Of a DNA stretch of 64,000 nt, positions 21,224 through 39,670 are shown one piece after another. This stretch comes from Dokdonella fugitiva (lineage in GTDB: Bacteria; Pseudomonadota; Gammaproteobacteria; Xanthomonadales; Rhodanobacteraceae). A model generated the notes under the pieces. The model saw only the letters and a program-made list of their open reading frames with translations. It was not told the origin of the DNA and searched no databases. The DNA lies in the NCBI RefSeq assembly GCF_014138265.1, contig NZ_JACGXL010000004.1:1-64000 (forward strand), read 5' to 3'. How positions within the stretch are numbered: the stretch's first letter is position 1; each line of letters begins with the position of its first letter. The position numbers were made by a program, and so were the translations under genes.

Positions 21224-21254
21224 GGCCGCGTCGCGACGGACACGAAGCGCGCGC

Positions 21255-22574: not shown

Positions 22575-22687
22575 GGTCTGCCTCCGTTCGTCGGGAGCGA
22601 CCATTGCACGCGCGTCGCGCGGCGCGGTGCGGGCGGATTCGGGCTGATTGCGGGCGGAATGCGCGGACGCGGTGGCGATCGCCGCGG

Positions 22688-22717
22688 TGGCGTCACTCCG
22701 GCGAACCGGGATGACGC
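22688..22717 (-). terminator. Repeat-type hairpin downstream of the giant protein gene
   Basis: GGCGTCA (22688-22694) pairs with TGACGCC (22711-22717), and the interior CCGG-CGAA-CCGG (22697-22708) continues the stem with a small bulge. The GTCA...CCGGCGAACCGGGATGAC pattern resembles dispersed intergenic palindromes found in many proteobacteria. It begins 26 bases after the stop of the 2646-residue gene, so it may end that transcript. No T-run is present. Confidence 0.5.
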
Positions 22718-22742
22718 CGATCGACTCGGCGCGCCGATGCCG

Positions 22743-25700
22743 TCAGTGCGCGATCGCCCAGGCCGTCCAGTCGATGCGCGTGCGCAGCGCATCCGCCTGG
22801 GCATTGGCCGAACGACCGCAGGCTTCGGCGGCATCGAGCAGGCGCAGCAACGCGGTCTCGCGATCCTGCGCCGACCATGCTGCCTGTGCCGCCTGCAGCG
22901 CCGTCACCGCGCTCGCGAGCGGCGCATCGGGGTTGCCGATCGCGTTCGCGACGACGACGAGATCGGCGATCGAGTCGCCGGGCAGGTGCGTGATCGCGAG
23001 CTCGGCATGCGCCAATTGCGCGATCGCGACCGGATCGCTCGACGACACCGTCGCCGCGATCGTGGTCGAGCCGCCGTACCCGAGCCGCACGTTCGAGTGC
23101 GCGACGAAGCTGCCCTGTTGCGAGAAGTCGAGCGCCCACGACGGCGTCGCCGGCATGAACGCGGAGCCGTCGTCGGCCGCGAGCACGAGGGTGCCGCGGA
23201 ACGGATCGGCATGGTTCGTCACCGTCGCGGTCAGCGGCACGACCGAGCCAGCGCGCAGCTCGACCGAGGTCGGCGCGAGCGTCGGCAGCACGCCGCCGAA
23301 CAGCTGCGAAAGCACGCCGGGCACCGCGTTCTCGTAGGTGCCGATCGCCGCCTGCCAGTCGAACGCCGCGTACGCACTGCGGCCGCTGCCATAGGCGTTG
23401 GTGAGCACCGCAGGCACGCGCCGCTCGACGCCGGCCCAGGCGCACGCGCGTGGATCGATCGTGATCTTCGCTCCGGCCATGCGGATCGTGTCGCCGATCA
23501 GCGAGCACTTGAACAGGCTGCTCGAACCGGACGCCTCGATGCCGCCGGCCGGCGCGAACACGTAGCCGCCGAGCGTCATCGACGAGGTCGCGAGCTTGAC
23601 CGCATCCGGACCGTGCAAGGTCGTCGCGAACTGCAGGCCCTGGTAGTACGGGTCGAACGTCGCGCTCGAGCCGGAGAACTGGATCGAGCCCGTGCTGACC
23701 AGCGTCACGGTGCCGCTGAAGCTCGAACCGGCGAGCTTCACGTCGCACGGGATCCAGTACACCCCTGGCGGCAGCACGATGCTGCTGCCGTTGCGTTGCC
23801 AGCGGTGGCTGCGCGCGCATTCGGCCGACTGGTCGAGGTAGGCGCCGCCGAGCGCGGCCTGCACCGGACCGCCCGGCCGGAAGTCGTCGAGGTTCGTGAG
23901 CTGCGGCAACGGCTGCGGGCTCACCGCGCGCGGCGGCACGCTGAACGTGTTCTGGCTGCCGCTGTTGGCGAACGTCGTCACGTAGTGCACAGGACCGTCG
24001 ACGGTGTTCTGCGCGCCGGTCCAGCGGATGCCGCCGTTGGAATGCACGGCGCCGTGGCTCTCGTGCTGGCTGCCGCTCCACTCCAGCGCGGTGTCGTTGC
24101 CGGTCGCGTTCGCCCACAGCGCGATCGCGCCGGGGTTGTCGCCGACGTCGACGATGCGCGCATCGCTGAACACGGTCGCGGGCGATGCAGCGGTCTGGAT
24201 CGCCTGCGCGCCTTCGGACAGGCGATGGTCGGCGCTGGCGGCGACGACCGGGCTCGCGACGTACGTGTCTGTGTGCGCACCGACCGCGAGGTTCGCGCTG
24301 TAACCACCGGCGATGCTCGCGAGAACGACGTTGCGCGCCGTCGCGCCGCTGTTGCGGATGCGCCAGGCCGTGTAGCGGTCGCTGCCGTCGGCGTTGCGGA
24401 CGCGGCCGAGGCCGGCGAGCGAGAGGCGCGTATTGCCGGTGCCCGCGTCGCTGCCGTAGTAGCCGATGTCGACGCGGCCGTGCGCCGCGAGTTCGTCGGA
24501 CAGGCGGCCCTGTTCCGGCGTGAGCGGCAGGCGACCCGTGAGTTCGGCGAGCACCTGCGCCGCCTGCGGCACGACGATCCGGCTCGCGAGGGTCGGTGCG
24601 AACGTCGCGTGCGCGGCACCGCCGGGAGCGGTGGCGAGCACGTCCAGCGACGCCGCGTTGATCGACGCCAACGCGTCCGACGCCGCGAGCCCGTTCGCCT
24701 GCGCGAGCGCGTCCGGCAAGCGTGCCCTGCCGTTGGCGACGAGCAGGCCGTCGCCACGGTGCACGCCTTCGCGCACGAGGCGCAGGGTCGTCGCATCGGC
24801 CTCGACCTGCGTCGCGAGCAGCAGGTACAGGCGATAGGCGCCGCTGCGCACGCCCGCCGCGAAGTCGGCCGGCGTCGTCGCGAACGTGACCGCGTAGCCG
24901 AGCGTGCCGAGCTGGGCGGCGATGCGCGTGCCTTGCGCCGCGGGCATGCCCGGGTCGACGAGCGCGAGCGCGGCCTTCTGCGGCGGCGCGGCGGCGAGCA
25001 CGACGTCGGCGTCGAGGCTCAGCAGCAGCTGGTAGGTGTCGACCGCGAGCGCCATCTCGTGTGCATTCGCGCCGCTGCCGACCGTCGCGCTGAGTACCGC
25101 GAGGTAGGTCGTGCCGACGCGACCGCGCGTGATCCAGCTCGCCGTGAACGGCACGCTCGCGCCGACGCCGATGTTCGACACCTGGTCGAAGCGCTGCATC
25201 ACCTCGCCGGTATCGGGATCGACCAGGGTGATCGCGAGCGGCAGGTTCGCGAACGCGCTGTTGCCCTGGTTCGCCGCACTCGCGTCGAGCGCGAGCGTCG
25301 CGCCGACCGGCAACGTCTTCGGCGTCGCGCCGATCGTGCCGACGAGGCCGAAACCGGTGTCGCTGCTCGAGACGACGTTGTAGGCGGTCTCGACGTGGCT
25401 GAGCAGGTTCGACTGCGCGTCGAACAGGTCCTGCTTGACCGCGTAGATGCCCGGCGCGGCATTGGCGAGCGTCTGCGGCACGCTGAAGTCGAGTCCCTGG
25501 CCGGCGAGCAGCTGGGCGATCGAGTACGTGTGCGTGAACTGCAGCGCGTCGGTCGCGTCGTAGACGTCGACCACCAGATGCAGGTTCGACAGCGTCGCGT
25601 TGACCGATCGGCTCTGCACGTGCGAGAGGATCTGCACGCGGTCGCTCGGGTTGTAGCTCTGCCGATCGGTGTGCACGGTCGACGTCGCCGCCGTGTTGGC

Positions 25701-28700
25701 GCCGTCGGGCAGCACGTTGAACGTGGTCTGGCCGCGCGCGATCGTGCGGCCGGCGTCGGCGAGTGTCGCCTTCACCGTGTACTGCGCCGGCGCGATCGTG
25801 CCGATCGGGAACGGATCGGTGACCGGCAGCGAACCGCCCTGCGGGATCGTCACGTCCTCGCGCGTGACGTGGCCGACGAGCGCGCCCGCGGCGTCGTAGA
25901 CGTCGACGACGAGCGTGCCGTTGACCGGGATGCCGTCGCCGTTGACGAGCGTGGTGGTCACCTGCGCGATCGCGTTGTTCGGATAGTCGGGATGGTCGGT
26001 GACGACGCCGAGCGAAACGACCGAGTCCGCGGTGACGACCGGCACGTCGATCGGCATCGTGACGATCTGCTGGGTGAAGCTGTTGGCGAACGTCATGTGC
26101 GCGTCGGACGCGACCGCGCGCTGCTCGCCCGGCTGCATGTCGACGAGGCGCAGCGCGAACGCGAGGTCGCGGCCGTCCTCCGTGACGCCGGTCAGCGCCC
26201 AGCTCACGACGAGGTTGCCGGCGGCGTCGGTGGTGCTCTGGTCCGGCACGGGCACGAAGTCGGAAGGCTGCACGTTCGGCGGGAACGTCGCCGACACGGT
26301 CGCGTCGATGCTGCCGAGGCGATCGAGGATCGTCGGCAACCAGATCGCGACCATCGTCGTGGTCGACTCGTGCGTGCTCATGATGCCGTTCGAACTCGTC
26401 CACGAGCCGTCGCCCTGCTGCTGCGTGAGCAGCCAGGCGACCGCCTTGCGGATCGCCGGATCGCCCGCCGACGGGTTCGTGTAGTCGATCGCGAGGCCGA
26501 CCTGCGCCGTGACGAGCGCATCGCTGCCGTAACCGGTGTAGCGCCCCCAGCCACCGTCGGCATTCTGGTTCGCGCGCAGGCGCGTCGCGATCGTCGCCAT
26601 CGCGGCCTTGATGTTCGCCGCGCGCGCGAGGTTCGACGCCTCGTAATAGCGGTACGCCTCGCCGAGGCCCCACAGCTGCTGCGCGAGGTGCATGTTGTCG
26701 TTGGTCGCGACCGACTGCCCCTGCAGCCAGGTCGTGCCGCGATCGATCGCGGTGTCGTAGTGCGCGAGCGAATCGGCGACGGTTTCGCTCTGCGGCACGA
26801 GCTTGTAGATGCCGCTGCGGCCGCTCGCGACGTAGGCGACGCTGCCGTCGGCGAGGTGCGTCATCTGGTTCGCCTGCGTGTAGGTCAGGCGCTGGCCTTC
26901 CCAGGCTTCGCTGAAGCGATAGATGCCGTTGGTCGTCGACAGCAGCCAGTGGTCGCCGTCCTTGAACAGCTGCAACAGGTTCGGCGGTGCGCCCGCGCCC
27001 TGCATCACTTCGAAGGCGAGGCTGACCGTCTTGTCCGGCGCGACGCGATAGACGCGGCCGTTGTAGTAGTCGGGCACGTAGAGGCTGCCGTCGTCGTTCG
27101 GCGTGATCGTCACCGGCTGCTGGAACGGTCCGTTCTGCACCCAGATGCTCGCCGCACCCGTGTCGTCGAAGCGATAGACGTTGCGGTTGCCCCAGACCGT
27201 GCCCCAGACCGTGCCGTCACTGCCGACCGACAGCGTGTCGAAGCCGGTCGCCGGCAATGCCACGCGCGTACCGTCCGCATTCAGGCGATAGACGTTGCCG
27301 GCGGTGCTCACCCACACCTGGCCGTCGGGCCGCTCGACGATGCTGCGCGGGTCGCTCATGCCGGTCCACTTCTGCACAAGCGAACCGTCGGGGCGGACCA
27401 GGTACACCGTCGCCCCGCTCTGGTCGGAGTAGTAAAGGTTGCCGCTCGACGCGGCGAGCAGCGAGCCGCGGCTCGAACCGGGCTGGCTCGCCAGCAGCGT
27501 CGCGCTGCCCCAGGTCGGCACGCTGGCCGGCGCGTTCGCGCGCAGGAAGTCGCCGACGCGGCGCAGGTTCGACAGGTTCAGCATCGACATGCTGATGTCG
27601 TTGTCGAACCAGGCCGCGTTGTAGTCGGACGACCAGTTGCCGTTGCTCGCCTGGAAGTTCACGACCCAGTCGCCCGCGCGCTTGAGCACGGCCGGGAATT
27701 CGCCGAGGTTGTGGTAGCCGAGCAGGCCCCACAGGGTCAGTGAACCGAGGCGACGGTAGTAGCTGCAGCAGTACCCCTGCGTGATGCCGCCGTCCTGCCC
27801 CTGGTTGGTCGAGACATTGTTGAGGATCGCGTTGCGGTCGAAATCGCTGAAGGACGTGAGCTCGCGCGTGAGCTCGCCACCGATCAGCGCCTGGTTGCCG
27901 ATGTGGCAGCTCGAGCAACGATTGGTGTCGATCCACGTGCGCGCGGCGGGATCGTTGAACGCGACCGCCTTCTGGATCGCGGTGCGGATCAGCGGTGCGA
28001 GCGGATCGCTGATCGTCGCGTGCGCGGGATCGGCGCCGCTGACGTGGATGTTGCCCTGCACGGTGCGCGTGCCCGCGAGCACCGTGTCCGGCGTCGCGCT
28101 GAACGCGGCCTGCGCGACGTTGCCGACGTAGAGGCTGCCGGTGACGCGCCCGAGCGCGGGGTTCGCCGCGGTGACGACGAGATCGAAATCACCACCCGCG
28201 GACGGCGTCCAGTTGCCGAAGTCGAGCGAGGCGAGTCCGCTCGGCGCGAGTTGGCCGAGGTCGGCGCTCGCGCTGAACGCGATCGCGCCGCTGTGCGTGT
28301 CGACCACGGCGAGCTGCATCGGCTGCGCCGGGAACGCGACATTGCCGTCGTTCTTGATGACCGCGGCGAGCGCCACGGGCTGGTTCAGGCCGGCCTGGAT
28401 CACCGGCGGATCGGCGGCGACCGTGCCGCCGAAATGCGTCGTCGCGACGATCGTGAACGGCGCGACCTGGTTGACGACGAGCGTGCCGAGCGGATTCGTG
28501 CGCGTGACCGAACCCGGCTGCACGACGCGCAGTTCGAACTGGTAGCTGCCCGGTGCGAACGTGCCGGTGTTCCAGCGGCCGATGATGCCGAGGTGCTCGC
28601 CCGCCGCGAGCGAGATCGCGCCGATGCCGAAACCGCTCGCATCGGTGAGCGGCCCGCTGCCGACCAGTGCGTGCGCAGCGTCGTACACCTCGAGCAGGAG

Positions 28701-30683
28701 TACGCCGTCGAACGTGGTCGAGCCGCCGTTGACGAGCGTCGTGCTGACCGCGAGGTTCGCGTTCGAGCCAGCACTCGCCGGCGTGACCGTGAGCGGGCCG
28801 AGCGTGACCGCGTCGGTCTGCTGCGCGACGAGGCTGAAGTCCTGCGCGTAGTCGCCCGGCGCGGTGATCGTGAAGGCGAAGCCCTGCGGCACGTAGCCAC
28901 TCGCCGAAACGTCCACCGCGAACGCGGTGCCGACGATGCCCGCAACGGCATAGCTGCCGTCCGATCCGCTGACTGCACTCGGCCCGCTTTCGACGGCGAC
29001 GGTCGCATTCGCGATCGGCGCACCGTGCTCGTCGAGTACGCGGCCGTGCAGCGACGTCGTCATCTGCGCGGTCTGCAACGCGATCGCGCCGATGTCGTTG
29101 AGGCCCTGCACGAGGCTGCCACTGACGACGACGCCCTGGTAGCCGTTCGCCGACACCGTCGCGCTGAACGCACCGACGTTGACGCCGGTGAACACGAACG
29201 TGCCGTCCGCCGCAGTGACCTGGGGCGTACCTCCGAGCACGACGCTCGCTCCGGCGATCGGCTGGCGCGTCGTCGCGTCGACGACGCTGCCCTGCAGCGT
29301 GGTCGCCGGCGGCGTCACGTTGGTCGGATACAGCGTCGGCGAGAAGACGTAGTTCGTGCCGGCGACGAAGGTCACGCTCGCCGTCACCGTGCGATAGCCG
29401 CCGAGGCTCGCAGTGATCGTCGCCGCACCCGGCGGGATGGCGCCGAGCTGGTACGCGCCGCTCGCGTCGGTGAGCGTGGAACGGCTGCCGACCGAGACGA
29501 TCACGTTCTGCAACGCCTGGCCGGTGTTGCTCTTGATCACGCCCGACAGGCTCGACGTGGTCGCGACGGGCGCGAGCGCGATCGCGCCGGTGTCGAGGTT
29601 CGTCGCGGCGACGACCTGGATGCCGAGCGCGCGCGACTGGTAGCCGCTGCGCGACAGCTGCAACGTGTAGTTGCCCGCCGGCACGCCGGCGAGATGGAAG
29701 CCGCCATCGCCGGCGGTGGTCGCGGCGAAGCCCGCGTTCTCGGCGAGCTTCACGCTCGCGCCGGAAAGCGGCTGGCCGGTCGCCTGGTCGACCACGCGCC
29801 CGCGCACGTCGCCGCTGTCGATCGTCGTCGGCGGCGCGCTCGCGTACCACAGCGCGTGCAGCGCGAGCGCGGTCACGTACGGATCGTCGCCCCAGCTGCC
29901 GTTGCCCGCCTGCGCGGCGTCGAGGGCCGCGACCAGCGGCGGCAGCGCCGCGCTCTGCGACGGCTGCGTCGCGAGCGCGAGCAGGCCGTACGCATCCTCG
30001 AAGGCATTGCCGTAATCGTGCGCGACGTTCTGCGCGCCGAGCAGCCACGTCGTCGCCGCGGCGGCGACGACGCCGTTCACGTCTTGGTCCGACCAGGCGT
30101 CCGCGGCGATCAGCACGTTGGCCGTGAGATAGACGGACGACGCGTCCGACACGCCCCAGCCACCATCGGCGAGCTTCGCCTGCGCGAACCACGCGAGGCC
30201 CTCGGCGGCGACGGGCGCCGGTGCGCCCGCGGCGCGCAGCGCCTGCAGGGCGAACGCGGTGTCGAGCGCATCGCTGGCATAGCTGCGCGTGAGGCCCCAG
30301 CCGCCGTCGTCGTTCTGCAGCGCGAGCAAAGTCGCGACGTCGTTCGGGTTCGGCTGGCCCGCCGCTGCGGCCGCCTGGATCCGGCGCGCGACGTATTCGA
30401 CGTTGCCGTCGCTGTTCGCCGCGATGACGCCCGCGAGCGAGGCCGGCGTGCTCGACAGCGCATGCAGGGTGACGAGTGTCTCCATGCGCGCCTGCATCGG
30501 CGTCGCGATCGCGGCGCCCTCACCCGCGAGCGAGCCGTTGCCCTGCACTTGCGCGCCGAGCCAGTCGACGCCGCGCTGCACCGACGGCGGCACCGCCTGC
30601 GCGTGCACGCCGCACGCGAACGCGCACGCCAGAAGCGAGGCCACGACGGCCCGGAAACGCGCCACTCCAAAGCACAGGTTCAT
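22743..30683 (-). CDS. Giant multidomain secreted protein (toroid / CarboxypepD_reg / CXXCH / propeller)
   Basis: The 2646-residue precursor starts at ATG 30683 (GAGGAG upstream) with a signal peptide ending near AQA (residue 30). Domains seen: alpha/alpha-toroid repeats with QW-like motifs DGGWG at 126-130 and 173-177 and NGSWG at 261-265; four carboxypeptidase-regulatory-like beta domains (about 291-370, 376-450, 461-535, 543-618); CARDB-like sandwiches (about 625-855). Then comes one CXXCH haem-type motif (923-927, CSSCH). A second toroid (about 980-1050 and 1300-1455) is split by a propeller-like insert (about 1060-1300). CARDB-like repeats follow. A C-terminal region (about 2211-2415) resembles PilX/TadG-type or polymer-forming adhesins (HSNGGIRWTG, GGYVFAPAGG). 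Function is unknown. It ends a three-gene run behind the RHS gene and its putative immunity gene. Confidence 0.8.
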   Translation of the reverse strand: MNLCFGVARFRAVVASLLACAFACGVHAQAVPPSVQRGVDWLGAQVQGNGSLAGEGAAIATPMQARMETLVTLHALSSTPASLAGVIAANSDGNVEYVARRIQAAAAAGQPNPNDVATLLALQNDDGGWGLTRSYASDALDTAFALQALRAAGAPAPVAAEGLAWFAQAKLADGGWGVSDASSVYLTANVLIAADAWSDQDVNGVVAAAATTWLLGAQNVAHDYGNAFEDAYGLLALATQPSQSAALPPLVAALDAAQAGNGSWGDDPYVTALALHALWYASAPPTTIDSGDVRGRVVDQATGQPLSGASVKLAENAGFAATTAGDGGFHLAGVPAGNYTLQLSRSGYQSRALGIQVVAATNLDTGAIALAPVATTSSLSGVIKSNTGQALQNVIVSVGSRSTLTDASGAYQLGAIPPGAATITASLGGYRTVTASVTFVAGTNYVFSPTLYPTNVTPPATTLQGSVVDATTRQPIAGASVVLGGTPQVTAADGTFVFTGVNVGAFSATVSANGYQGVVVSGSLVQGLNDIGAIALQTAQMTTSLHGRVLDEHGAPIANATVAVESGPSAVSGSDGSYAVAGIVGTAFAVDVSASGYVPQGFAFTITAPGDYAQDFSLVAQQTDAVTLGPLTVTPASAGSNANLAVSTTLVNGGSTTFDGVLLLEVYDAAHALVGSGPLTDASGFGIGAISLAAGEHLGIIGRWNTGTFAPGSYQFELRVVQPGSVTRTNPLGTLVVNQVAPFTIVATTHFGGTVAADPPVIQAGLNQPVALAAVIKNDGNVAFPAQPMQLAVVDTHSGAIAFSASADLGQLAPSGLASLDFGNWTPSAGGDFDLVVTAANPALGRVTGSLYVGNVAQAAFSATPDTVLAGTRTVQGNIHVSGADPAHATISDPLAPLIRTAIQKAVAFNDPAARTWIDTNRCSSCHIGNQALIGGELTRELTSFSDFDRNAILNNVSTNQGQDGGITQGYCCSYYRRLGSLTLWGLLGYHNLGEFPAVLKRAGDWVVNFQASNGNWSSDYNAAWFDNDISMSMLNLSNLRRVGDFLRANAPASVPTWGSATLLASQPGSSRGSLLAASSGNLYYSDQSGATVYLVRPDGSLVQKWTGMSDPRSIVERPDGQVWVSTAGNVYRLNADGTRVALPATGFDTLSVGSDGTVWGTVWGNRNVYRFDDTGAASIWVQNGPFQQPVTITPNDDGSLYVPDYYNGRVYRVAPDKTVSLAFEVMQGAGAPPNLLQLFKDGDHWLLSTTNGIYRFSEAWEGQRLTYTQANQMTHLADGSVAYVASGRSGIYKLVPQSETVADSLAHYDTAIDRGTTWLQGQSVATNDNMHLAQQLWGLGEAYRYYEASNLARAANIKAAMATIATRLRANQNADGGWGRYTGYGSDALVTAQVGLAIDYTNPSAGDPAIRKAVAWLLTQQQGDGSWTSSNGIMSTHESTTTMVAIWLPTILDRLGSIDATVSATFPPNVQPSDFVPVPDQSTTDAAGNLVVSWALTGVTEDGRDLAFALRLVDMQPGEQRAVASDAHMTFANSFTQQIVTMPIDVPVVTADSVVSLGVVTDHPDYPNNAIAQVTTTLVNGDGIPVNGTLVVDVYDAAGALVGHVTREDVTIPQGGSLPVTDPFPIGTIAPAQYTVKATLADAGRTIARGQTTFNVLPDGANTAATSTVHTDRQSYNPSDRVQILSHVQSRSVNATLSNLHLVVDVYDATDALQFTHTYSIAQLLAGQGLDFSVPQTLANAAPGIYAVKQDLFDAQSNLLSHVETAYNVVSSSDTGFGLVGTIGATPKTLPVGATLALDASAANQGNSAFANLPLAITLVDPDTGEVMQRFDQVSNIGVGASVPFTASWITRGRVGTTYLAVLSATVGSGANAHEMALAVDTYQLLLSLDADVVLAAAPPQKAALALVDPGMPAAQGTRIAAQLGTLGYAVTFATTPADFAAGVRSGAYRLYLLLATQVEADATTLRLVREGVHRGDGLLVANGRARLPDALAQANGLAASDALASINAASLDVLATAPGGAAHATFAPTLASRIVVPQAAQVLAELTGRLPLTPEQGRLSDELAAHGRVDIGYYGSDAGTGNTRLSLAGLGRVRNADGSDRYTAWRIRNSGATARNVVLASIAGGYSANLAVGAHTDTYVASPVVAASADHRLSEGAQAIQTAASPATVFSDARIVDVGDNPGAIALWANATGNDTALEWSGSQHESHGAVHSNGGIRWTGAQNTVDGPVHYVTTFANSGSQNTFSVPPRAVSPQPLPQLTNLDDFRPGGPVQAALGGAYLDQSAECARSHRWQRNGSSIVLPPGVYWIPCDVKLAGSSFSGTVTLVSTGSIQFSGSSATFDPYYQGLQFATTLHGPDAVKLATSSMTLGGYVFAPAGGIEASGSSSLFKCSLIGDTIRMAGAKITIDPRACAWAGVERRVPAVLTNAYGSGRSAYAAFDWQAAIGTYENAVPGVLSQLFGGVLPTLAPTSVELRAGSVVPLTATVTNHADPFRGTLVLAADDGSAFMPATPSWALDFSQQGSFVAHSNVRLGYGGSTTIAATVSSSDPVAIAQLAHAELAITHLPGDSIADLVVVANAIGNPDAPLASAVTALQAAQAAWSAQDRETALLRLLDAAEACGRSANAQADALRTRIDWTAWAIAH

Positions 30684-30709
30684 TTCGTGAACTCCTCGAC
30701 GACATCGAG

Positions 30710-31375
30710 TCAACTCGACAGCCGCTTCTCCAGAAACGGAAATCCGTAGGTGTCCAGTAGATGGAACACCTTGTTCAACGCTGGCTCGATCGCGCGATCG
30801 AGTTCGTGATCCGGAATCTCGATCGCTTTCGCGATGCTTCCCCACAGTCCGAATTCGATCCTGTCCGCCCGGGCCAGCAGCTTCTCGATCTCATCCATGG
30901 TGACCGCAGGATTCGCGCGCCGCATGTCGGTGATCGTCATCTCGCGGACGCGGCGATAGAGGTCGGTCGTCGATGCCGCGCGGATCGCCTCGTCCTGCAG
31001 CGCGATCGGCGGGTCACTGACTTCGATGAAGCGCGATCCGTCGACGAGGTCGTCTCCGACCAGCGGCTCGTCCGTCAGCTGCAAGCCGCCGCTGGCCGGG
31101 ACGCTGGGGTTCACGTGCCAATCCCATCCCGGCAACTCCTGCCACGACACGCCTTCGGACGTCCAATACAGCACGGCCGTGATCCATTGTTCGTTCGCCG
31201 TCCCGCCTAGCACGATCCATGCACGGTGGAGGTCGCCGACCGCTTTCGAATACACGTCGCAACCCGTCCAGCTCGTTCCGGCCAGGCTGACCTTGGTCTT
31301 CGGATAGTCCGGGTGGGCCGCTTTCATACGTTTCGCAACCTGGCTCGCGAAGCGGGTTCGAAGTGCCTTCAACAT
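30710..31375 (-). CDS. Putative immunity protein for the RHS toxin
   Basis: The 221-residue protein has no signal peptide or membrane helix and I recognise no family. It is acidic-to-neutral with mixed alpha/beta character. Its start follows the RHS stop by 21 bases, with a good Shine-Dalgarno (GGGAGGAAT), and its stop is 26 bases before the giant gene. A small cytoplasmic protein encoded directly after an RHS toxin tip is the usual position of the cognate immunity gene. Its DNA is less GC-rich than the flanking genes (line 30781-30840 is 35/60 G+C against 45/60 at 28021-28080), as expected of a swapped toxin/immunity cassette. The function is inferred from position only. Confidence 0.6.
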   Translation of the reverse strand: MLKALRTRFASQVAKRMKAAHPDYPKTKVSLAGTSWTGCDVYSKAVGDLHRAWIVLGGTANEQWITAVLYWTSEGVSWQELPGWDWHVNPSVPASGGLQLTDEPLVGDDLVDGSRFIEVSDPPIALQDEAIRAASTTDLYRRVREMTITDMRRANPAVTMDEIEKLLARADRIEFGLWGSIAKAIEIPDHELDRAIEPALNKVFHLLDTYGFPFLEKRLSS

Positions 31376-31396
31376 TCCGTGATTCCTCCCGAGGAC

Positions 31397-31900
31397 TCAG
31401 AGGCAGCCGCCTGCCGTTTCCTCGATGAACATCGCGAAGTCGACGAACCCGCCGATCACGGAGACGGCATCGACTCCGGACAGCTCGCGCAGCAGCTTCT
31501 CGCGATTCGCCTTCGCCCCAGGGCCGAGCTTCTTGCCGGAGACGATCAACACTTCCCGTCCTTCCGCCGCCGCAGCCTTGATCTGGTTGACGAGTCGCAT
31601 CATCGCTTCACTGCCCGCCTTGGGAATCTGATACTTCGATTCGATCGTGCGCAGCTTGCCCGCCAGCTGGACTTCGAAGTCGAGATTGATCTTGGTTCCC
31701 TTCAACGCGGCGCCCTTCGCCTTTCCAGGGCCGACGCATTGCTCGATGATCTTCTTCACGCCCTTCTCGGCGAGTTCGCCGAGGCGATTGAATACGCTGC
31801 GGCCGGCTCCCTGCGCGAACTGCCGCCCCGCTTGCTGGCCGGCGAGGTTCAGATCCGCCTGGATGTCCTCCGCCGCCGACGTTTCGGCCAGCGTCATGTT
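31397..31900 (-). other. C-terminal toxin tip of the RHS protein, nuclease-like
   Basis: These are residues 2375-2541, after the RHS core DPSG boundary. The segment INLDFEVQL...LRTIESKYQIP carries an Asp (2448) followed 13 residues later by Glu-Ser-Lys (2461-2463). This spacing fits the D-Xn-ExK catalytic core of PD-(D/E)XK restriction-endonuclease-fold toxins. The preceding helix (GELAEKGVKKIIEQC) and the following strand (REVLIVSGKKL) are compatible. Local G+C falls (31621-31680 is 33/60). The nuclease assignment is inference. Confidence 0.55.
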
Positions 31901-34900
31901 GCCGCTGGGATCGGCGTTGTTGACCGGGTCGTTGCCCGCGTACAGGTAGCGATTCAGCGACGCGACGCAGCCGAGGCATCCACGGTACGCGTCGGGGGCG
32001 GTGAAGCGGGCGATGCCCGGGTCGTACCAGCGGGCGCGCAGGTAGAGCAGGCCGGTGTCGGCGTCGAAGCGCTCGCCTGCGAAGCCGAAGGCGTTGTCAT
32101 CGCTTCCGGTCGACTCGACCCGATTGCCCCAGGCATCGTAGCCGTAGAACTGGATCGCAGCGCCGCTCGCATCGCTGAGCGCGACGATCGAACCGAGGCC
32201 GTCGTGGTGGTAGTAGGTACCCTGGCCGCCGCGGAAGCGCAGGATGAGCTCGTCGCCGTACACGTATACCGCGGTCGCGTGGCCCGCCGCGTCGTACTCC
32301 GCGACGATCCGCGCAGCGTCGTTGTTCGCGTCGACGAGGAAAGCCGTCGTCTGCGACGAGCCGCCCGCGCTCTTCGTGCGCTGCGAGAGATTGCCGTCCG
32401 GTGCATACGCGTACGTCAGGCCGACGCCGCCGGGAAGCGCCACGCCGGCGAGGTTGTGCTCGGCGTTGAACGTGTAGGTCGTCGTCGCGCCGCCCTGCGT
32501 CCTGCTCGCGATCTGTCCGTTGGCATCCCACGCGTACGTCGCCGCGCCGCTGCCGGTCGCTGCGGTCAGGCGATCGGCGCTGTCGTAGGTGTACCCCGTG
32601 TTCGCACCGTCGAGCGTCTGCGCCGACCGGTTGCCGACGGCATCGAGCGTCCAGGTGGCCGCGTGTGCGGGCAGGCTGCGCGTTTCGCCGGTGAGGCGCG
32701 CCGCGCCGTCGTAGCTCCATCCGATGTCGCGGACCGAGCCGTCCGGCGCGTGCTGGCTCAGCGCGGTGCGCTGGCCGGCAGCATTGAGCGTGTAGCCGCC
32801 CTGCACGAGCACGCTCGCACCGTGCTTCGTTTCGTAGGCGGTCAGGCGATCGTTGGCGTCGTAGGCGTACGTGGTGACCACACCGTTCGGATCGTCGCGT
32901 TCGATGCGCCGGTTCGCCGCGTCGTAGCGGAACGTGACCGTCTGCCCGAATGCCGTCACCGACGCGAGGTTGCCGGCCGCGTCGTAGGCATAGTCGGTGC
33001 GGAAGCCTTGTCCATCCGGCGTCGTCGCGACGATGGCCGTACGTTGTCCGGCCGCGTCGTATTCATAGTGCAGCTTCGACTGGTCGGCATTGGTGACGTC
33101 GACGAGGCGATCGCGCGAGTCGTAGCCGTAGCGCGTGACGGTGGACGCACCGTTGAGCGCACGCGTGAGGCTCGCCACCTGGCCGCCTTGCGTGTAGGTC
33201 GTGCTGAGCACGGTGCCGTCGACGAAGGTGCGGCTGCGGATGCGCCCGGCGGCGTCGTACTGGTATCCGCTCGCGTTGCCGGCGAAATCCGTGCTGTTCG
33301 TGAGACGGCCCGCCGCGTCGTACGCCATCGTTTGATAGCGCGCGTCCGGCAGCGTTATGCTGGTCGCGCGACCGAGTGCGTCGTAGCCCCACTGCGTCGC
33401 ATGGTTGAGCGCGTCCGTCTGCGACGTCTTGTTGCCGAGTTCGTCGTAGCCGTAGGCGGTGATCTTGCCGAGCGCGTCCGTGACCTTGTTCATGCGCCCG
33501 TTGCGGTCGTAGCCGAGCGTCGTCGTACGGCCGAGGGCGTCGGTGTTGCCCGTCTTGCGACCCGCGGCGTCGTAGGCGTACTGGCTCGCACTGCCGTCGG
33601 CCCACGTGGTCCGAGTGCGTCGGTTGGCGGCGTCATAGTCGTGCTGCACCGCGTGGCCGAGCGCGTCGGTGACCTTGGTGAGCTTGCCGACCGCGTTGTA
33701 CTCGTAGTCCGTGGCATTGCCCGCCGGGTCGGTCGACTGCGTCTTGCGGCCCGCCGCGTCGTACGCCGAGTGCGTCGTGCGACCGAGTTCGTCGCTGCTC
33801 GCGGTCTCCTGGTCTCCCGCGTCGTACGCGGTCGTCGCGCGGCTGCCGTCCGGATTGACGACGGCGACGGCTCGATCGAGCGCGTCGTATTCGGTCCGCG
33901 TCTCGCGACCCGCGCGATCGGTTTCCTTGATCACGTTGCCGTTCGGATCGCGCTCGGTGGCGGTGCTCGTGCCGTCCGGGTACGTGACGAGCGATTCGCG
34001 CCCCAACACGTCATAGGCGTAACGGGTCATGCGCCCGAGCGGATCGGTCAGCGATGCGAGCTGCTTCTGCGCGGTCCATGCGTAGCGCGTGATGTTGCCG
34101 AGCGGGTCGGTCTCGGTCGTCAGGTTGCCGTCGGCGTCGTACACGTACGTCGTCGTCAACGTCTGCGTCTGTCCGGCCACCACGCGCGTGCGCACGGTGG
34201 TGAGACGGTTGCCGTCGGCGTCGTAGGTGTACTTGGTGACGTTGCCGAGCGGATCGGTTTCCTGCGTCTTGCGACCCTGCGCGTCGTTCTGGTACGTCGT
34301 GGCGTAACCGGTCGGATCCGTGAACTGGACCAGCTGGTCGAAACTGGAGCCACCCCAACCGAGCCCGGTCGAGTGACCGAGTGCGTCGGTGATCGAGCGG
34401 AGCATCCCCGGATCGGTGTAGCCGAACGTCGTCGCATGACCGAGCGCGTCGGTGACGGATTCCACGCTCTGCGGGGTGTGGTTCCCCATCATCGTGTAGA
34501 AATTCCAGTCGGTCGTCGTCGTGTGGCCGAGCCCGTCGGTCTGCGTCAGCACCGTGCCCGACGGCGTGTCGTAGGTCGTCGACGTCGAACGGCCGAGCGG
34601 ATCGGTCGTCGCAAGCAGGTTGCCGAAGGCGTCGAATGTCGACGTCGTCACGCCACCGAGGGCATCGACGACCTTCGTGATGTTGCCCTGGTCGTCGAAC
34701 GTGTAGGTCTTCGTGTTGCCGTTGCGATCGGTAACGGCCTGCGTATGCGTGTCGAGATCGCGCTGCGACAGGTCGATCTTGTTGCCGAGCGCGTCGTACT
34801 GCGCGACGAGGCGGCCGCTCGCGTCGTACTCGTTGCGTACCTGCTGCACGCCGGACGCGTCGGTGTAGTTCGTCAGCAGGTGGGCGAGCGCAGCCGGCAC

Positions 34901-37900
34901 GGTCGCGTACTGGTTGCGACTGACCTTGTTCGCCGGGCTCGTGATGCTGTCGAGGTCGCCCGCAGCCGTGTAGGCGTACTTGACCTTGCGGCCGGACGGA
35001 TCGGTGACCTGGGTGATGCGCCCTTCCGCGTCGCGCGTGAACTGCAGCGCGGCGCCGTTGCCGGCGAACGCGCCCTGCGCGTTGAGCACGAGCGTCTGCC
35101 CGTTCGGGTCGGTGATCTGCACGACCTTGAACGTGTTCGCGCCGTCGCTGCTCTTCAGGATGTACTTGAAGTTCTCGATCGTCGTCAGCTGGTAGCTCTG
35201 CGAGTCGTATGCAGCGCCTTCATCCGGGTCGAACACGGTGCCGCCCTGGTAGAGCAGGTCGCCGCCGTCGAGCACGTCGAGCGTACTGGTCGTGCCCGGG
35301 CGCGGGTTGAACGCCATCGAGAACACCGCAGGCACGCCGCCGGTGGCGCATTCCTGGCTCGCGACGACGTCGAACTGGTGCACCTTGCCGTCCGACAGCG
35401 CGATGCTCACCACGCGCTTGCCGATCGGGCGGATGCAGAACGTGAGGAAGCCCGGCTGGTACAGCTCCCATTGCTCGCCGAGCGGCTTGTTCCGCTGCAG
35501 CTTCACGTTCTGGTACGACAGCGTCCAGCCGTAGCCGAAGTCGCCCTTCTCGTCCTTCCGGCGCGAATCGTAGGTGCGCGTGATCGTCAGCGGCACGCCG
35601 CCGACGTCGAGCTGGATGTCGTTGAAGCTGACCGTGAACGCGCCGATCTTGAGGTCGCCCTGCACGACCACGTGCTGGACCGCACTCGCCGAGCTGCCGT
35701 TGGCGTCCCAGGCGACGAGGCCGAGGTCGTACTGGCCGTTCTCGACCTGGGTTGGATCGAACGCGCCGAGCGCCCCGTTGACCGCACCGGAACCGCGCGC
35801 GAGTTCGCGCCAGGCGTTGCGGCCGGTCGGCGACACCGACAGCGTCCACAACGTGGTGTTCGCGTCGGAGACGACGCCGCTCACCGGCGTCGGCTTCGTC
35901 AGTACGTCGCCGTCCGCGGGCGCGGTGATCTGCACGGTCGGCGGCGTCGTGTCGCCGTCGACGTGCACGCCGAACGCACTGCTGCGCACGAGCGTGCCCT
36001 TGTTGTCGGTCGCGTTCGCGACCACCGTGTGGGTGCCCGCGCCGTGCGCGGCGACGTGCGCCTGGCCGTTCGCGTCGAGCGGCACGTTCGTGCCGTCGAT
36101 CGCGAGCGACTTCGCGACGGTGCCGGAACCGCCGGTCGTCGCGACCGTGATCGTGACCGTGTCGCCTTCGTTGACGAACTGCGGCGCGACCGCGAGGTTG
36201 AGATCGAGCGGCATCACCTGGCCGATCGTCAGCGTGAACGCCTGCTCCGCCGTCGCATGGCCGTCGGAGACGCGCAGCGTGATCGGATACGAACCGGTGA
36301 CCGGGCTCGCCCAGGCGAGCAGGCCCGCGCTCGACAGCGTCACGCCGTTCGGCGCGCCGACGAGCTGGAACGTGAGCGCGTCGCCGTCCGGGTCGGTCGC
36401 GGTCGCGAAGTACTGGTACGCCTGGCCGAGCGCGCCGCTCGTCACCGGCGCGCTCGTGAAGTACGGCGCGTTGTTCGTCTGCGGGCCGCCCGGCAGGCCG
36501 GTATGGTCGACCGTGTCGACCGCGCTAACGACCGACGTGCCGATGTCGCCGAGCGCGCCGGGCAGGCCGTCCCACAGCGCGCACAGCCACCACTGGCTCA
36601 GCACCGTCGGCGCGCCGACGAAGTTCGACCACGGCACGGTACCGTAGTCGGCGAGCAGCGCCACCGCGGCGTTGTAGTAGTTCGCTTCGACCGTGAGCGG
36701 CCCCTGCAGCGCCGCGGCGACCGCGTCGCCCTGTACGCCGAGCGCGGGGCCGGCGAGCGCGAGCGGCAACCAGCCGCCGGCGACGTCGAGTTCGGCCTGT
36801 TCGCGACCGCTGATCTCGTAGTCGCCGCTGCCGGTGGCCGTGTCCTCGAGCACGTAGCCGACGCCGTTCCACGCGCCGACCGCGACACCGGACTGGCTGA
36901 TCGTCGCGGTACGCCCCGACTGGATCGCGTCCTGCATGACGGTGATCGTCGCCGGATCGACGCCGAGCTGCGGCAGCACCGTGGCGCCGTTCGTCGACGT
37001 CGCGCGGTAGATCTTCTGGCCGGACGTCGTCGCCGCGTGCAGCGCGCGTACCGCGGATGCGGCACTGCCCGCGTGCGCGGCGTCGGTGAACAGCGCGTCG
37101 AGCAGCAGGTGCGTGTACGCCGACGCGCGTTCGCCGTAGGTGCGCTGGAACGCCTGCGCGCGCGCCGCGTTCGCGTCGCTCGCGACGGCGGTGCGACCGA
37201 TCGCCTCGACCGTGAGCGCTACGCCGGGGAATGCGACCGACTGCGGCAGCCCGTTGGCCGACGTCACGGTCGCGTGCGTGCTCACGCGCACGATCGTCGG
37301 CAGCGGATAGCCGACGATGCCGCACGCCTTGCACATGAGTTCGGTGTTGCCGGCGACCGTCGTCGCGTAGGCGAGCGCCGCATAGTCGAGCACTTCACCG
37401 ACGAGCCCGTCCTGGCCGAGGCCGGCGTACTGGTGCGCGGCGAGCTGGCTGCCCATCGCCGCGAGGCGGTCGCGGCTCGCCGCGAGCGTCGCCGGCGATA
37501 CGCCGTTGCCGATCAGCGCGAGCGAATGCGTTTCGCCGGCGACGACGCGCGTGCCGGGCGCGTAGCGCCAGTCGCCGACCTGCGGATCGAAGATGCCGAC
37601 CGCGCCGACCAGCGCGGTGCCGAACGGCACGCTGCCGCCGCTCGCGGCGACCGTACCGTCGATCGTCAGCTGCACCTTGGTGCTGACCGTCGACGCCGAC
37701 ACGTTCGCCGGCAGCGGGTTCGCGTTGAGGCGCGCGGCGAGTCGGCTGTCGTCGCCCGCGCTCGCGCCGGGGAACGTGAGCGTGAGCCGCTTGCCGACCC
37801 ACTTCGGCAGCGATTGCGACACGCTCGCGAGCGCGTGACCCTGGCTGCGTTCGAACTCGTCCGCGTAGACGCCGTACTGCACCTTCCAGCGCAGGGTGTC

Positions 37901-39022
37901 GGGCAGGTCCGAATAGACCGCGCCGAGCGCGACCGTCTTGTACGGCAGCGCACCCGCGAGCACGGGCAAGCCCTCGCCGATGATCGATTGCGCACCGAGC
38001 ACGTCGGCGACCGTCGCACCCGGCTTGTGCGACTGGATGTACGCGTCGACGCGGCCGGTGAAGTCGGCGTATGCGGCGGCGAGCGTGGAGAGGTCGAGGC
38101 CGCTCACGCCGTCGGCGCTGATCGACGCGCCCTGCGCGATGCGCGCGGACAACGCGGCGGTGTCGAGCGTGACGCCGGTGCGCACCGGCAGGCCCGCGCT
38201 GTAGCGATACTGCTTGTAGGACGCGTCGAGCGGCACCCAGGTGGATGCGCTGCGGTTCACCGCGCCGCGCGACGGGTTGAAGTCGACCCACGCCTCGACC
38301 CACACGTGCTCGAGGCGCAGCGCACCGATGCTGCCGCCGCTGACGACGCCCTGCACGGGCACGCCGCCCTGGTCGAACAGGCTGACCGCCGCCTCCGGCG
38401 CGGCGACGCCGCCGACCCAGTTCTGCGCGGCCGCCGCGGGCACCTCGATCGTGCCGTACGCGTAGCGCGCGGGCACGTTGCTCGCGCGCAGCAGCGCGAC
38501 GAGCAGGCTCGCCGTGTCGTATGCATTGCCGCGGCGCGTCTGCAAGGTCGCGTCGGCGCCCTGGATCGAACCCCAGGTCGGCGTGAACGCGACATGGTCG
38601 CGTACCCAGTTGTAGATCTGCACGGGGTTGTGGCCGAGCGAGTCGGCGAGCGAGCGGATCGCCGGTGTGAGCACGACGTCGTCGTTCTCGCCGAGATCGG
38701 CCGGACCCGGCGGCACGAATGCGTCCACTGCGGCATCCTTCGCGACGCCTTTTCCGGCGCGCTTCGCCGGCGGTGCGGGCGGCAGGTAGGTAGCCGAGCG
38801 GAACGATTCGGCGCTCGCATGCGGCAGTCGCTCGCCGCGGTCCTGGGGCACGACGAAGCGCGAACGCGCCGGCGCGGGCGCTGCCTGCGCCGCCGGCGCT
38901 GTCGCGGCAAGCGCATCGGGCGGTACGACCAGCGTGGTGGATGCCCCCAGCAGCGTGCATGCCGCCGCAAACGCCATCGTCGCGACCGGTCGCACCATCG
39001 TCCATCGGCTCGTGTTCTTCAT
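31397..39022 (-). CDS. Secreted RHS/YD-repeat polymorphic toxin with transglutaminase-like domain
   Basis: The 2541-residue precursor starts at ATG 39022 with a signal peptide (about residues 1-40). A transglutaminase-like domain lies at about 120-275; His239 (LEHVWVEAWVD) and Asp266 (WVPLDASY) are present, but the cysteine position in RGNAYDTASLL is Ala167. Ig-like domains follow at about 850-935 (FATATDPDGDALTFQLVG), 940-1025 and 1026-1120. After an RHS entry region (LTITRTYDSRRKDEKGDFGY, about 1147-1166) comes a long run of YD repeats (about 1300-2300). The RHS core at about 2310-2374 (TGLLYLRARWYDPGIARF, DPSG) closes the cage, and residues 2375-2541 form the toxin tip. No VgrG, PAAR or T6SS gene is nearby; Sec export is implied by the signal peptide. 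Confidence 0.88.
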   Translation of the reverse strand: MKNTSRWTMVRPVATMAFAAACTLLGASTTLVVPPDALAATAPAAQAAPAPARSRFVVPQDRGERLPHASAESFRSATYLPPAPPAKRAGKGVAKDAAVDAFVPPGPADLGENDDVVLTPAIRSLADSLGHNPVQIYNWVRDHVAFTPTWGSIQGADATLQTRRGNAYDTASLLVALLRASNVPARYAYGTIEVPAAAAQNWVGGVAAPEAAVSLFDQGGVPVQGVVSGGSIGALRLEHVWVEAWVDFNPSRGAVNRSASTWVPLDASYKQYRYSAGLPVRTGVTLDTAALSARIAQGASISADGVSGLDLSTLAAAYADFTGRVDAYIQSHKPGATVADVLGAQSIIGEGLPVLAGALPYKTVALGAVYSDLPDTLRWKVQYGVYADEFERSQGHALASVSQSLPKWVGKRLTLTFPGASAGDDSRLAARLNANPLPANVSASTVSTKVQLTIDGTVAASGGSVPFGTALVGAVGIFDPQVGDWRYAPGTRVVAGETHSLALIGNGVSPATLAASRDRLAAMGSQLAAHQYAGLGQDGLVGEVLDYAALAYATTVAGNTELMCKACGIVGYPLPTIVRVSTHATVTSANGLPQSVAFPGVALTVEAIGRTAVASDANAARAQAFQRTYGERASAYTHLLLDALFTDAAHAGSAASAVRALHAATTSGQKIYRATSTNGATVLPQLGVDPATITVMQDAIQSGRTATISQSGVAVGAWNGVGYVLEDTATGSGDYEISGREQAELDVAGGWLPLALAGPALGVQGDAVAAALQGPLTVEANYYNAAVALLADYGTVPWSNFVGAPTVLSQWWLCALWDGLPGALGDIGTSVVSAVDTVDHTGLPGGPQTNNAPYFTSAPVTSGALGQAYQYFATATDPDGDALTFQLVGAPNGVTLSSAGLLAWASPVTGSYPITLRVSDGHATAEQAFTLTIGQVMPLDLNLAVAPQFVNEGDTVTITVATTGGSGTVAKSLAIDGTNVPLDANGQAHVAAHGAGTHTVVANATDNKGTLVRSSAFGVHVDGDTTPPTVQITAPADGDVLTKPTPVSGVVSDANTTLWTLSVSPTGRNAWRELARGSGAVNGALGAFDPTQVENGQYDLGLVAWDANGSSASAVQHVVVQGDLKIGAFTVSFNDIQLDVGGVPLTITRTYDSRRKDEKGDFGYGWTLSYQNVKLQRNKPLGEQWELYQPGFLTFCIRPIGKRVVSIALSDGKVHQFDVVASQECATGGVPAVFSMAFNPRPGTTSTLDVLDGGDLLYQGGTVFDPDEGAAYDSQSYQLTTIENFKYILKSSDGANTFKVVQITDPNGQTLVLNAQGAFAGNGAALQFTRDAEGRITQVTDPSGRKVKYAYTAAGDLDSITSPANKVSRNQYATVPAALAHLLTNYTDASGVQQVRNEYDASGRLVAQYDALGNKIDLSQRDLDTHTQAVTDRNGNTKTYTFDDQGNITKVVDALGGVTTSTFDAFGNLLATTDPLGRSTSTTYDTPSGTVLTQTDGLGHTTTTDWNFYTMMGNHTPQSVESVTDALGHATTFGYTDPGMLRSITDALGHSTGLGWGGSSFDQLVQFTDPTGYATTYQNDAQGRKTQETDPLGNVTKYTYDADGNRLTTVRTRVVAGQTQTLTTTYVYDADGNLTTETDPLGNITRYAWTAQKQLASLTDPLGRMTRYAYDVLGRESLVTYPDGTSTATERDPNGNVIKETDRAGRETRTEYDALDRAVAVVNPDGSRATTAYDAGDQETASSDELGRTTHSAYDAAGRKTQSTDPAGNATDYEYNAVGKLTKVTDALGHAVQHDYDAANRRTRTTWADGSASQYAYDAAGRKTGNTDALGRTTTLGYDRNGRMNKVTDALGKITAYGYDELGNKTSQTDALNHATQWGYDALGRATSITLPDARYQTMAYDAAGRLTNSTDFAGNASGYQYDAAGRIRSRTFVDGTVLSTTYTQGGQVASLTRALNGASTVTRYGYDSRDRLVDVTNADQSKLHYEYDAAGQRTAIVATTPDGQGFRTDYAYDAAGNLASVTAFGQTVTFRYDAANRRIERDDPNGVVTTYAYDANDRLTAYETKHGASVLVQGGYTLNAAGQRTALSQHAPDGSVRDIGWSYDGAARLTGETRSLPAHAATWTLDAVGNRSAQTLDGANTGYTYDSADRLTAATGSGAATYAWDANGQIASRTQGGATTTYTFNAEHNLAGVALPGGVGLTYAYAPDGNLSQRTKSAGGSSQTTAFLVDANNDAARIVAEYDAAGHATAVYVYGDELILRFRGGQGTYYHHDGLGSIVALSDASGAAIQFYGYDAWGNRVESTGSDDNAFGFAGERFDADTGLLYLRARWYDPGIARFTAPDAYRGCLGCVASLNRYLYAGNDPVNNADPSGNMTLAETSAAEDIQADLNLAGQQAGRQFAQGAGRSVFNRLGELAEKGVKKIIEQCVGPGKAKGAALKGTKINLDFEVQLAGKLRTIESKYQIPKAGSEAMMRLVNQIKAAAAEGREVLIVSGKKLGPGAKANREKLLRELSGVDAVSVIGGFVDFAMFIEETAGGCL
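32100..35125 (-). repeat. YD-repeat coding array
   Basis: The DNA encodes dozens of imperfect 20-odd-residue units of the type YDAAGRxTxxTDxxGxxTxY, visible at DNA level as recurring GCGTCGTAGGCGTAC-like words on the plus strand. They build the beta-cage of the RHS protein. The high internal similarity makes the region prone to recombination and assembly error. Confidence 0.85.
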
Positions 39023-39543
39023 GCAGCGTCCTCGAATGCACCTTGGCCCGCGCGCGCGCGCGGCCGCGTCAGGGTCGTTCTCTTGAAGTTCGTCGTGATG
39101 CAGCGGCGCGGAGCGGCGGCGCGATGGCGTGGCGCCAACACCGGGGCGCGATAGGACGGCAGATCCCGCCTGCGCGAACGCGGCACGCCCTCGTGGACCC
39201 ATGCGACACACCCTTTCTCCGTCCATGGCCGAAAAAGGCCGGAGCCGCCGCAAGCGCTCGCGCGCCCGGCTTGGCTCATCCGCAATCGATCGTCCGCCCG
39301 CAGATACCGGCGTTGCGCCGGTGTTCTCCCCTGCTGGGTCGAGCAATCACGCTAGCACGCGATTCCTGCAATGAAAAGTCGATGCCATGCGCATTCGAAA
39401 GAAATGTGCACGAGTTCACAGTGCGCGGGGAGCGTGCGTGCGCGCCGATCCGGGGCTGCACGAACGGAGCTGCTTGCAGTCGACCCTATCGCACCGCGCG
39501 CGACGCATAGGTCGTGCCGGGACGGTCACCCGCGGGAGGGATA
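39023..39543. other. Long intergenic region upstream of the RHS gene
   Basis: No gene is supported in these 521 bases. The part at 39345-39420 is clearly less GC-rich than its surroundings and is the likely promoter area for the minus-strand RHS operon. This gives a leader of roughly 320 bases. The leader contains a perfect hairpin, ACCGGCG-TTG-CGCCGGT (39306-39322), and GGCC-GAAAAA-GGCC (39227-39240). No riboswitch or sRNA family was recognised. Short ORFs here lack codon bias or homology. Confidence 0.5.
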
Positions 39544-39615
39544 TGGGCCGTGATGGGATCGAACCATCGACCAACGGATTAAAAGTCCGCTGCTCTACCG
39601 CTGAGCTAACGGCCC
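39544..39615 (-). tRNA. tRNA-Lys (UUU anticodon)
   Basis: On the minus strand the acceptor GGGCCGT pairs with ACGGCCC. The D-arm is GCTCAGCGGTAGAGC, the anticodon loop CTTTTAA gives UUU, and the T-arm contains GGTTCGATCC. The discriminator is A and CCA is not encoded. It lies 55 bases after the queC stop. The order tolB-pal-cpoB-queE-queC-tRNA-Lys is also found in Pseudomonas aeruginosa, where this tRNA is a genomic-island attachment site. Confidence 0.96.
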
Positions 39616-39670
39616 ACAGGAAGGCGCCCGCGACGGCCGCGGGGTCGCGCAGTTTACCCGCCCGGCCGCG

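Follow-up and report, generated by a model that had tools for sequence, protein, structure and literature searches.

The locus described here raises the question of whether the giant secreted toroid protein (TOR) encoded beside an RHS polymorphic-toxin-like gene acts together with the toxin and, if so, in what capacity. In the window, the whole stretch of 64,000 nucleotides from Dokdonella fugitiva that was analysed, re-reading of the open reading frames (ORFs) bore out the three minus-strand genes, their lengths and their spacing as claimed in an earlier note on this DNA: the RHS gene (2541 aa) is followed after 21 nt by an ORF of 221 aa and this, after 26 nt, by the gene for TOR (2646 aa). 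By eye, a Shine-Dalgarno-like purine-rich stretch lies ahead of each of the three starts, and a Sec-like signal sequence was recognized at the N-terminus of both the RHS protein and TOR.

Table 1. Features of the operon and of the two giant proteins (positions in the window).
Feature	Position	Strand	Remarks
RHS polymorphic-toxin-like gene	31397..39022	-	ATG 39022, stop 31397; 2541 aa
Putative immunity gene	30710..31375	-	221 aa, starts 21 nt past toxin stop
TOR, secreted toroid partner	22743..30683	-	ATG 30683, stop 22743; 2646 aa
TG, transglutaminase-like domain	38222..38629	-	residues 132-267; Transglut_core 3.4e-15 (Pfam)
T2 domain	36806..38005	-	about residues 340-739; conserved with TG across phyla
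RHS/YD shell	31895..35689	-	residues about 1112-2376, end DPVNNADPSG
C-terminal toxin candidate	31397..31894	-	165 aa, no relative found
TOR toroid domain 1	29829..30575	-	about residues 37-285; most widely shared TOR part
CarboxypepD_reg (TTR-like) x4	28674..29807	-	Pfam
CXXCH motif, CSSCH	27903..27917	-	TOR residues 923-927
Propeller-like region	26943..27467	-	Vgb_lyase 35.8 bits, below cut-off 50
Second toroid, SQHop_cyclase-like	26340..26687	-	C-terminal half of TOR
Ig/MG/CARDB-like region (TORMG)	25077..26036	-	present in both giant TOR size classes
TOR C-terminal region	22755..24797	-	end ...LRTRIDWTAWAIAH

The operon is bounded by a tRNA-Lys gene (39543-39616) and creD (21255-22604). 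Pfam matched five of ten flanking ORFs (CreD, QueC, a TolA-binding/CpoB type, an OmpA family protein and TonB_2) and left five without a match. No secretion-system domain was detected by Pfam in these ten or in the three operon proteins, and for this set of proteins the earlier statement that no T6SS, VgrG, TpsB or T7SS gene is nearby holds true. Since the organism's own genome contains three secretin matches, a T2SS-type route across the outer membrane is possible for the window's system. GC3 amounts to 0.93 in TOR, 0.905 in the RHS gene and 0.79 in the 221-aa gene. Long open frames run antisense on the plus strand opposite TOR and RHS (20517-27743, 2408 aa; 31226-39154, 2642 aa) and are probably GC-driven shadow ORFs of these high-GC3 genes.

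The RHS protein consists of a signal sequence, TG, T2, an Ig-like part, the RHS/YD shell and a variable C-terminus. Pfam detected Transglut_core, 25 RHS_repeat stretches and DUF6531, and the NCBIfam Rhs_assc_core match stops at residue 2374. The T2 domain, which no Pfam or NCBIfam model matched, ends in a junction of the '(I)SGG.NGG' type that reads EISGREQ in the window's protein. The previous description of the N-terminal domain as transglutaminase-like is correct with regard to the fold match, but the catalytic cysteine is absent: in all 28 aligned rows its column is occupied by other residues (A in 14, D in 13, S in 1), while the active-site histidine is kept in 24 and the aspartate in 15 of the 28. 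TG is thus predicted to be an enzymatically dead transglutaminase-like domain.

In TOR, the propeller-like region apparently sits within the second toroid. Identity with squalene-hopene cyclase was rejected given an NCBIfam hopene_cyclase score of 32.1 bits versus a cut-off of 431.1. Alpha-2-macroglobulin, weighed owing to MG2 and TED matches, was likewise dismissed because the thioester motif (GCGEQ/CGEQ) occurs in none of 48 TOR ORFs. Across TORs the toroid is constant, and propeller, Ig, vWA and adhesin-like domains vary. Relatives' TORs reach 5.7-6.5 kaa; the smallest toroid partners comprise a signal sequence, the toroid and a short tail, 'toroid' in small partners denoting a modest profile match (43-130 bits). 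The haem function ascribed earlier to this protein does not extend to TORs in general: the window's TOR has a single CXXCH, and among the 48 TOR ORFs (46 contigs) only those of the window and G543 carry the motif, which marks a rare TOR variant. These two share the context TNRC..CHI and are 28.6% identical over 1880 columns; the G210 TOR is cut before the CXXCH point.

Linkage of TOR and TG-T2 was assessed in relatives, parts of TOR serving as queries against 233 genomes from the family, 369 from the class and 299 from the order. Flanks of TOR matches were scanned with profiles built from the window's domains, and counts were read from the tables by hand. A TG gene adjoins TOR in 27 of 28 relatives' loci with usable flanks. 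In the single exception (G471:C28) a TG gene of the 'long TOR' clade sits on another contig, so the pair may be split in this genome. This count excludes the window, G018 (which had been found through TG and contributed a row to profile A3), 12 loci that are fragmentary or have less than about 1.5 kb of sequence behind TOR (G569:C111, G333:C132, G437, G453, G264, G609, G643, G660, G602, G758, G620, G210:C108), and weak matches in ORFs no longer than 1,070 aa (15 genomes in the family search, 10 in the order search). The earlier note had named separation of the two genes in most relatives as the outcome that would speak against a joint system; this is not borne out, and with the pair also conserved across phyla a joint function of toxin gene and TOR is strongly supported.

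In the opposite direction, a family search with the N-terminal part of the RHS protein found TOR adjoining 14 of 17 relatives' TG genes, the others being G075, G081 and copy d of G224, which is nearly identical to the paired copy c. A TG-T2 profile matched 27 of the 369 class genomes. A toroid gene, mostly small (442-1002 aa), is close to 9 of 13 newly found class genes, four of the nine being loosely linked (divergent at 0.9 kb in G296; 0.8-1.5 kb between in G401, G542 and G351); the partner in G588 has 2056 aa with its toroid match at the C-terminus. The remaining four TG genes (G303, G360 and both of G471) are without a toroid neighbour; G471 C13 has only a 143-aa ORF matching at about 40 bits, under threshold. 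The 13 newly found genes leave out G251, G376, G543 and G229, already known and the source of the rows of the class profile (A4), as well as G498 and G569. The TG-led counts exclude the window, G226:C252 and additional TG copies standing in tandem in G251, G648 and G402; G233, G264, G313, G326, G342, G433, G438, G550 and G333:C23 and C74 were dropped as fragments or for short flanks. Plasmids of Methylomonas and Paraglaciecola carry a TG gene without a toroid neighbour.

The usual gene order is TOR followed by the toxin gene, and the window's order (toxin, small gene, TOR), shared with G543, is thus the rarer variant. In five loci (G229, G224, G655, G617, G606) the TOR stop and the TG start overlap as ATGA. 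Three-giant layouts, in which TOR is immediately preceded by another giant ORF (2650-3264 aa), were seen at G026:C16:26926-34878, G018:C61:12760-20712 and G227:C13:83126-92920.

In a TG-T2 tree of 57 rows (quick method, SH-aLRT support only) all 18 'long TOR' rows fall into one clade (support 100) and 19 of 20 'short' rows into another (99), Paenibacillus also being short. Small-partner rows form a third clade (94, below the starred level), joined by Herbivorax. Only three changes occur among the short, long and tiny partner classes; with all six labels there are 12 changes versus a shuffled mean of 30.6, and none of 200 shuffles gave a value as low. Since related sequences cluster anyway, the tree documents that the pairs stay together and is no evidence that the two proteins touch each other.

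TOR followed by TG-T2 is also found in Candidatus Magnetomicrobium cryptolimnococcus (Nitrospirota), where TOR is in two ORFs, in Herbivorax sp. ANBcel31 (Bacillota, Clostridia) and in Paenibacillus soyae. A scan of contigs from named genomes yielded at least 62 loci. Among those listed, at least 57 match toroid repeats only (their ORFs have about 330-1,141 aa, and in one case a CarboxypepD_reg stretch accompanies the repeats) and were set aside, at least three (L011, L014, L015) contain the pair, and two (L012, L013) resemble TOR and end at the contig edge. A plasmid of Spartinivicinus ruber encodes a 587-aa toroid protein, followed after 48 nt by an RHS gene and then a 163-aa gene; these are annotated as 'prenyltransferase/squalene oxidase repeat', RHS and hypothetical. 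Just upstream of the Herbivorax pair lies another gene (L014 6535-9414), in which vWA-like and SLH-like parts were recognized by eye. Plasmid pUP202 of Methylomonas sp. UP202 (L307 6317-19962) has a TG-RHS gene and a small follower but no toroid gene; a type II secretion/pilus-like cluster (annotated as GspE, F, G, PilN and PilO-like) adjoins them in divergent orientation and is perhaps an alternative export partner.

The wider comparison revises the identity of TOR's conserved partner, previously taken to be the RHS toxin. An RHS match is absent from at least ten TG-T2 proteins encoded beside a toroid gene (G227, G251, G376, G402, G543, G588, G648, Magnetomicrobium, Herbivorax and Paenibacillus). 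Because TOR stays where the RHS shell is gone, the conserved partner is TG-T2, and the RHS cocoon would be an optional cargo placed after it. Past the end motif of T2 (ISGG.NGG-like) the sequences diverge: the tail is Amidase_2 in Herbivorax and DNase_NucA_NucB in G376 (Pfam), and hydrophobic by eye in G251, G648, G227 and Magnetomicrobium. Tandem partial T2-tail cassettes with small genes are found in G648, G251 and G588. Those at L219/L240 (G648:C1:1149921-1167328) and L203/L238 (G251:C1:1773230-1786940) are orphan cassettes composed of a partial TG/T2, a new hydrophobic tail and a small gene of lower GC3, and by eye transposase-like ORFs lie between some cassettes of both genomes.

A small ORF on the same strand comes after 40 of 44 closed TG ORFs, and its GC3 is lower in 38 of the 40 (median drop 0.21). 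By contrast, 138 of 247 other long ORFs on the same contigs have a small follower, with lower GC3 in 75 of the 138 (median drop 0.02). The gap to the follower is -15 to 35 nt for 31 of the 44 TG ORFs versus 61 of the 247 control ORFs. This combination of followers and variable tails is as expected of polymorphic toxins whose immunity genes can be exchanged, and it indicates that TOR serves TG-T2 and not the RHS shell. Based on its position and lower GC3, the 221-aa gene is probably the immunity gene of the RHS toxin. Its product had no Pfam match above cut-off and no match in plasmids, 244 other genomes or PDB (E under 0.3). The toxin end, also without a Pfam match above cut-off, gave none in plasmids, viral contigs, 223 other genomes or PDB (E under 0.3); a D...ExK pattern noticed by eye makes it a possible PD-(D/E)XK nuclease candidate. 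Structure models were unusable both for the toxin end alone (pLDDT 45.5) and for TG-T2 (4 alignment rows; pLDDT 53.7), for which Foldseek returned nothing under E 0.3.

Near relatives allow the same chromosomal site to be compared. In G028, whose CreD is 90% identical to that of the window, one contig carries QueC, tRNA-Lys, TOR and RHS and breaks inside the RHS gene; a second starts inside an RHS gene and continues with two small genes and CreD. If these unjoined contigs represent one site, the order would be TOR, RHS, small genes. The N-terminal parts of the RHS proteins of window and G028 are 75% identical and parts of TOR 41-52%; RHS similarity extends to residue 2394, 18 residues beyond the shell, and the tails differ. 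The interval between tRNA and creD measures about 3.9 kb in G032 and about 4.3 kb in G029 and contains no RHS or TOR match over 60 bits in either. Given the different tail in G028 and the intervals of G032 and G029, the module appears to be an accessory insertion whose tail can be exchanged. An LRR-like ORF of 366 aa (below Pfam cut-offs) lies between the putative immunity gene and creD of G028 (L324 2546-3643).

What, then, might TOR do for TG-T2? We consider it reasonably probable that the operon belongs to a polymorphic toxin system that has two partners and is exported by Sec, and in which TOR acts as a scaffold at the cell surface. The constant N-terminus of the toxin protein would be the dead transglutaminase-like domain plus T2, and the C-terminal cargo, swapped among relatives, would in the window be an RHS cocoon with a possible nuclease, matched by an immunity gene behind it. 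TOR would be a secreted scaffold whose toroid binds TG-T2 and holds it at the cell surface, to which the giants would add Ig/MG, TTR and propeller parts; it is a candidate for what the dead TGase domain binds. From surface-held TG-T2 the cargo would reach neighbouring cells, and contact-dependent delivery, toxicity and immunity are predictions from sequence. Anchoring or display of the toxin by TOR, as proposed in the earlier note, receives indirect support from toroid proteins of relatives: the Herbivorax TOR has three SLH domains (Pfam), the G401 partner an IPTL-CTERM above its cut-off (NCBIfam), and by eye the C-terminus of several giant TORs shows P-x-P followed by a hydrophobic stretch and Arg. 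None of these anchors is recognizable in the window's own TOR, and the additional suggestion that TOR helps to process the toxin found no support.

Surface anchors also bear on the idea that TOR is a targeting or entry subunit, which would recognize prey and help the cargo across the envelope instead of being anchored to the producer itself, as TcA does for the cargo of Tc toxins. The diversity of propeller, Ig, vWA and adhesin-like domains around a constant toroid fits such a role, as does the fact that no other delivery gene occurs among the ten scanned flanking ORFs. We nevertheless regard it as unlikely, because SLH and IPTL-CTERM attach some toroid partners to the surface of the producing cell itself and four TORs scanned with Pfam contain no pore-forming or TcA-like domain.

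Alternatively, TOR and the RHS protein may be two halves of a split teneurin-like particle, in which TOR provides TTR and propeller, the RHS protein the YD shell, and TOR caps the cocoon. The TOR of G028 scores 32.6 bits with TTR_TEN1-4 (cut-off 27) and 50.9 with TEN_NHL (cut-off 27.1), relatives' TORs match teneurin models, and the RHS shell resembles bacterial and animal teneurin shells in sequence, the TEN_YD-shell match of the RHS protein (34.6 bits) being below the cut-off of 50; no NHL or TTR match was obtained in this protein at E 0.1 (Pfam). However, TOR is kept at the ten loci where the TG protein gave no RHS match, and small partners scanned with NCBIfam retain the toroid without a CarboxypepD_reg or propeller match (among small partners, Pfam covered Herbivorax only). 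Because of these shell-less pairs and small partners, shell capping cannot be the shared function, which makes the split particle rather improbable; capping may be an added role in giant TORs.

A third option, export or folding of TG-T2 by TOR as a chaperone in the periplasm or cell-wall space without a surface role, would be compatible with a toroid able to hold a chain and with TOR usually preceding TG, sometimes with an ATGA overlap favouring paired translation, yet sizes of up to 5.7-6.5 kaa are beyond the need of a chaperone and some TORs carry surface anchors, so that we judge it quite improbable. That the two genes are functionally unrelated neighbours, as TG genes without a toroid neighbour and the varying content of the same interval within the genus might suggest, is already contradicted by the linkage counts and, in view of adjacency over three phyla, matched phylogeny and overlapping genes, is highly improbable.

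A scaffold function of TOR can tentatively be extended to a general toxin-display platform of single- and double-membraned bacteria, in which any cargo may be mounted on the dead-TGase handle; we are inclined to doubt this broader claim somewhat. If true, a surface-anchored toroid would clasp the TG 'handle', the cargo would be an RHS-cocooned toxin, a pore-former, a nuclease or an amidase, scaffold size and anchor would be fitted to the envelope, and the system would stand as a separate class of delivery alongside CDI, T6SS, T7SS and Tc.

CDI and other two-partner secretion systems combine two large proteins with an immunity gene, orphan cassettes and a contact-dependent logic. All of these recur here, the contact-dependent logic as a prediction, but the partner is without an outer-membrane barrel match and the pair also occurs in Bacillota; neither a TPS domain nor a TpsB/CdiB barrel was found in the operon proteins or ten flanking ORFs. 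Tc (ABC) toxins possess an RHS cocoon, a C-terminal toxin and separate giant partner proteins and are similar in cocoon, toxin end and giant partner, with no TcA, TcB or SpvB-type Pfam match in the three operon proteins at E 0.1. T6SS Rhs effectors have an RHS shell, a C-terminal toxin and an immunity gene. They use PAAR/VgrG, whereas the window's RHS protein has a Sec-like signal, and no PAAR/VgrG or T6SS genes were detected in the operon proteins or ten flanking ORFs.

The toxin half belongs to a group that had already been described, although the earlier label was 'candidate undescribed system'. As far as the accessible text goes, inactive-TGase RHS toxins comprise a signal sequence, a dead TGase, optional Ig, RHS repeats and a variable C-terminal toxin, and it was proposed that their TGase domain binds peptides and so serves as an anchor (Zhang et al. 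2012, PMC3482391). The window's protein agrees in its TGase fold with a lost catalytic residue, its RHS repeats and a C-terminal region varying among relatives. In the available portion of that paper RHS arrays follow the dead domain; here, by contrast, RHS is optional after TG-T2. The terms toroid, terpenoid, prenyltransferase, squalene, S-layer and SLH are absent from the searched text of PMC3482391, the accessible part of PMC13274458 held nothing relevant, and no description of the toroid partner was found in titles and abstract openings of the open-access literature.

Bacterial teneurin-like proteins, according to the available part of their description, consist of a YD shell with a variable C-terminal toxin and a downstream immunity gene, lack obvious delivery machinery, and reach their targets by a route that is an open question (Raoelijaona et al. 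2026, PMC13018210). They are alike in these three features, but form one superfold protein, as far as that text extends, whereas here TTR and propeller reside in a separate protein, TG-T2 leads the shell, and the RHS protein does not combine the YD shell with the other superfold domains; the word 'transglutaminase' is absent from the available portion of PMC13018210. Our data suggest an unrecognised two-part machine that would display toxins on the bacterial surface. A partner travelling with the toxin's constant module across phyla, mostly with operon-like spacing and with a matching phylogeny, would provide a concrete, deletable gene for the delivery question. The system also offers a function for 'prenyltransferase/squalene oxidase repeat-containing' toroid proteins and suggests what the dead transglutaminase domain reported in 2012 may be used for.

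Other genera of the family contain open frames of ~12,100-12,850 aa (G169:C17, G112:C5, G085:C7, G088:C3, G205:C11, G145:C1) whose similarity is confined to the Ig-like stretch that precedes the RHS shell. The window's own genome encodes further RHS genes without a TG match at L133, L134 and L135 (C8, C9 and C7); the one at C7:68319-76811 (2830 aa) is followed by a 191-aa ORF with a GC3 of 0.60.
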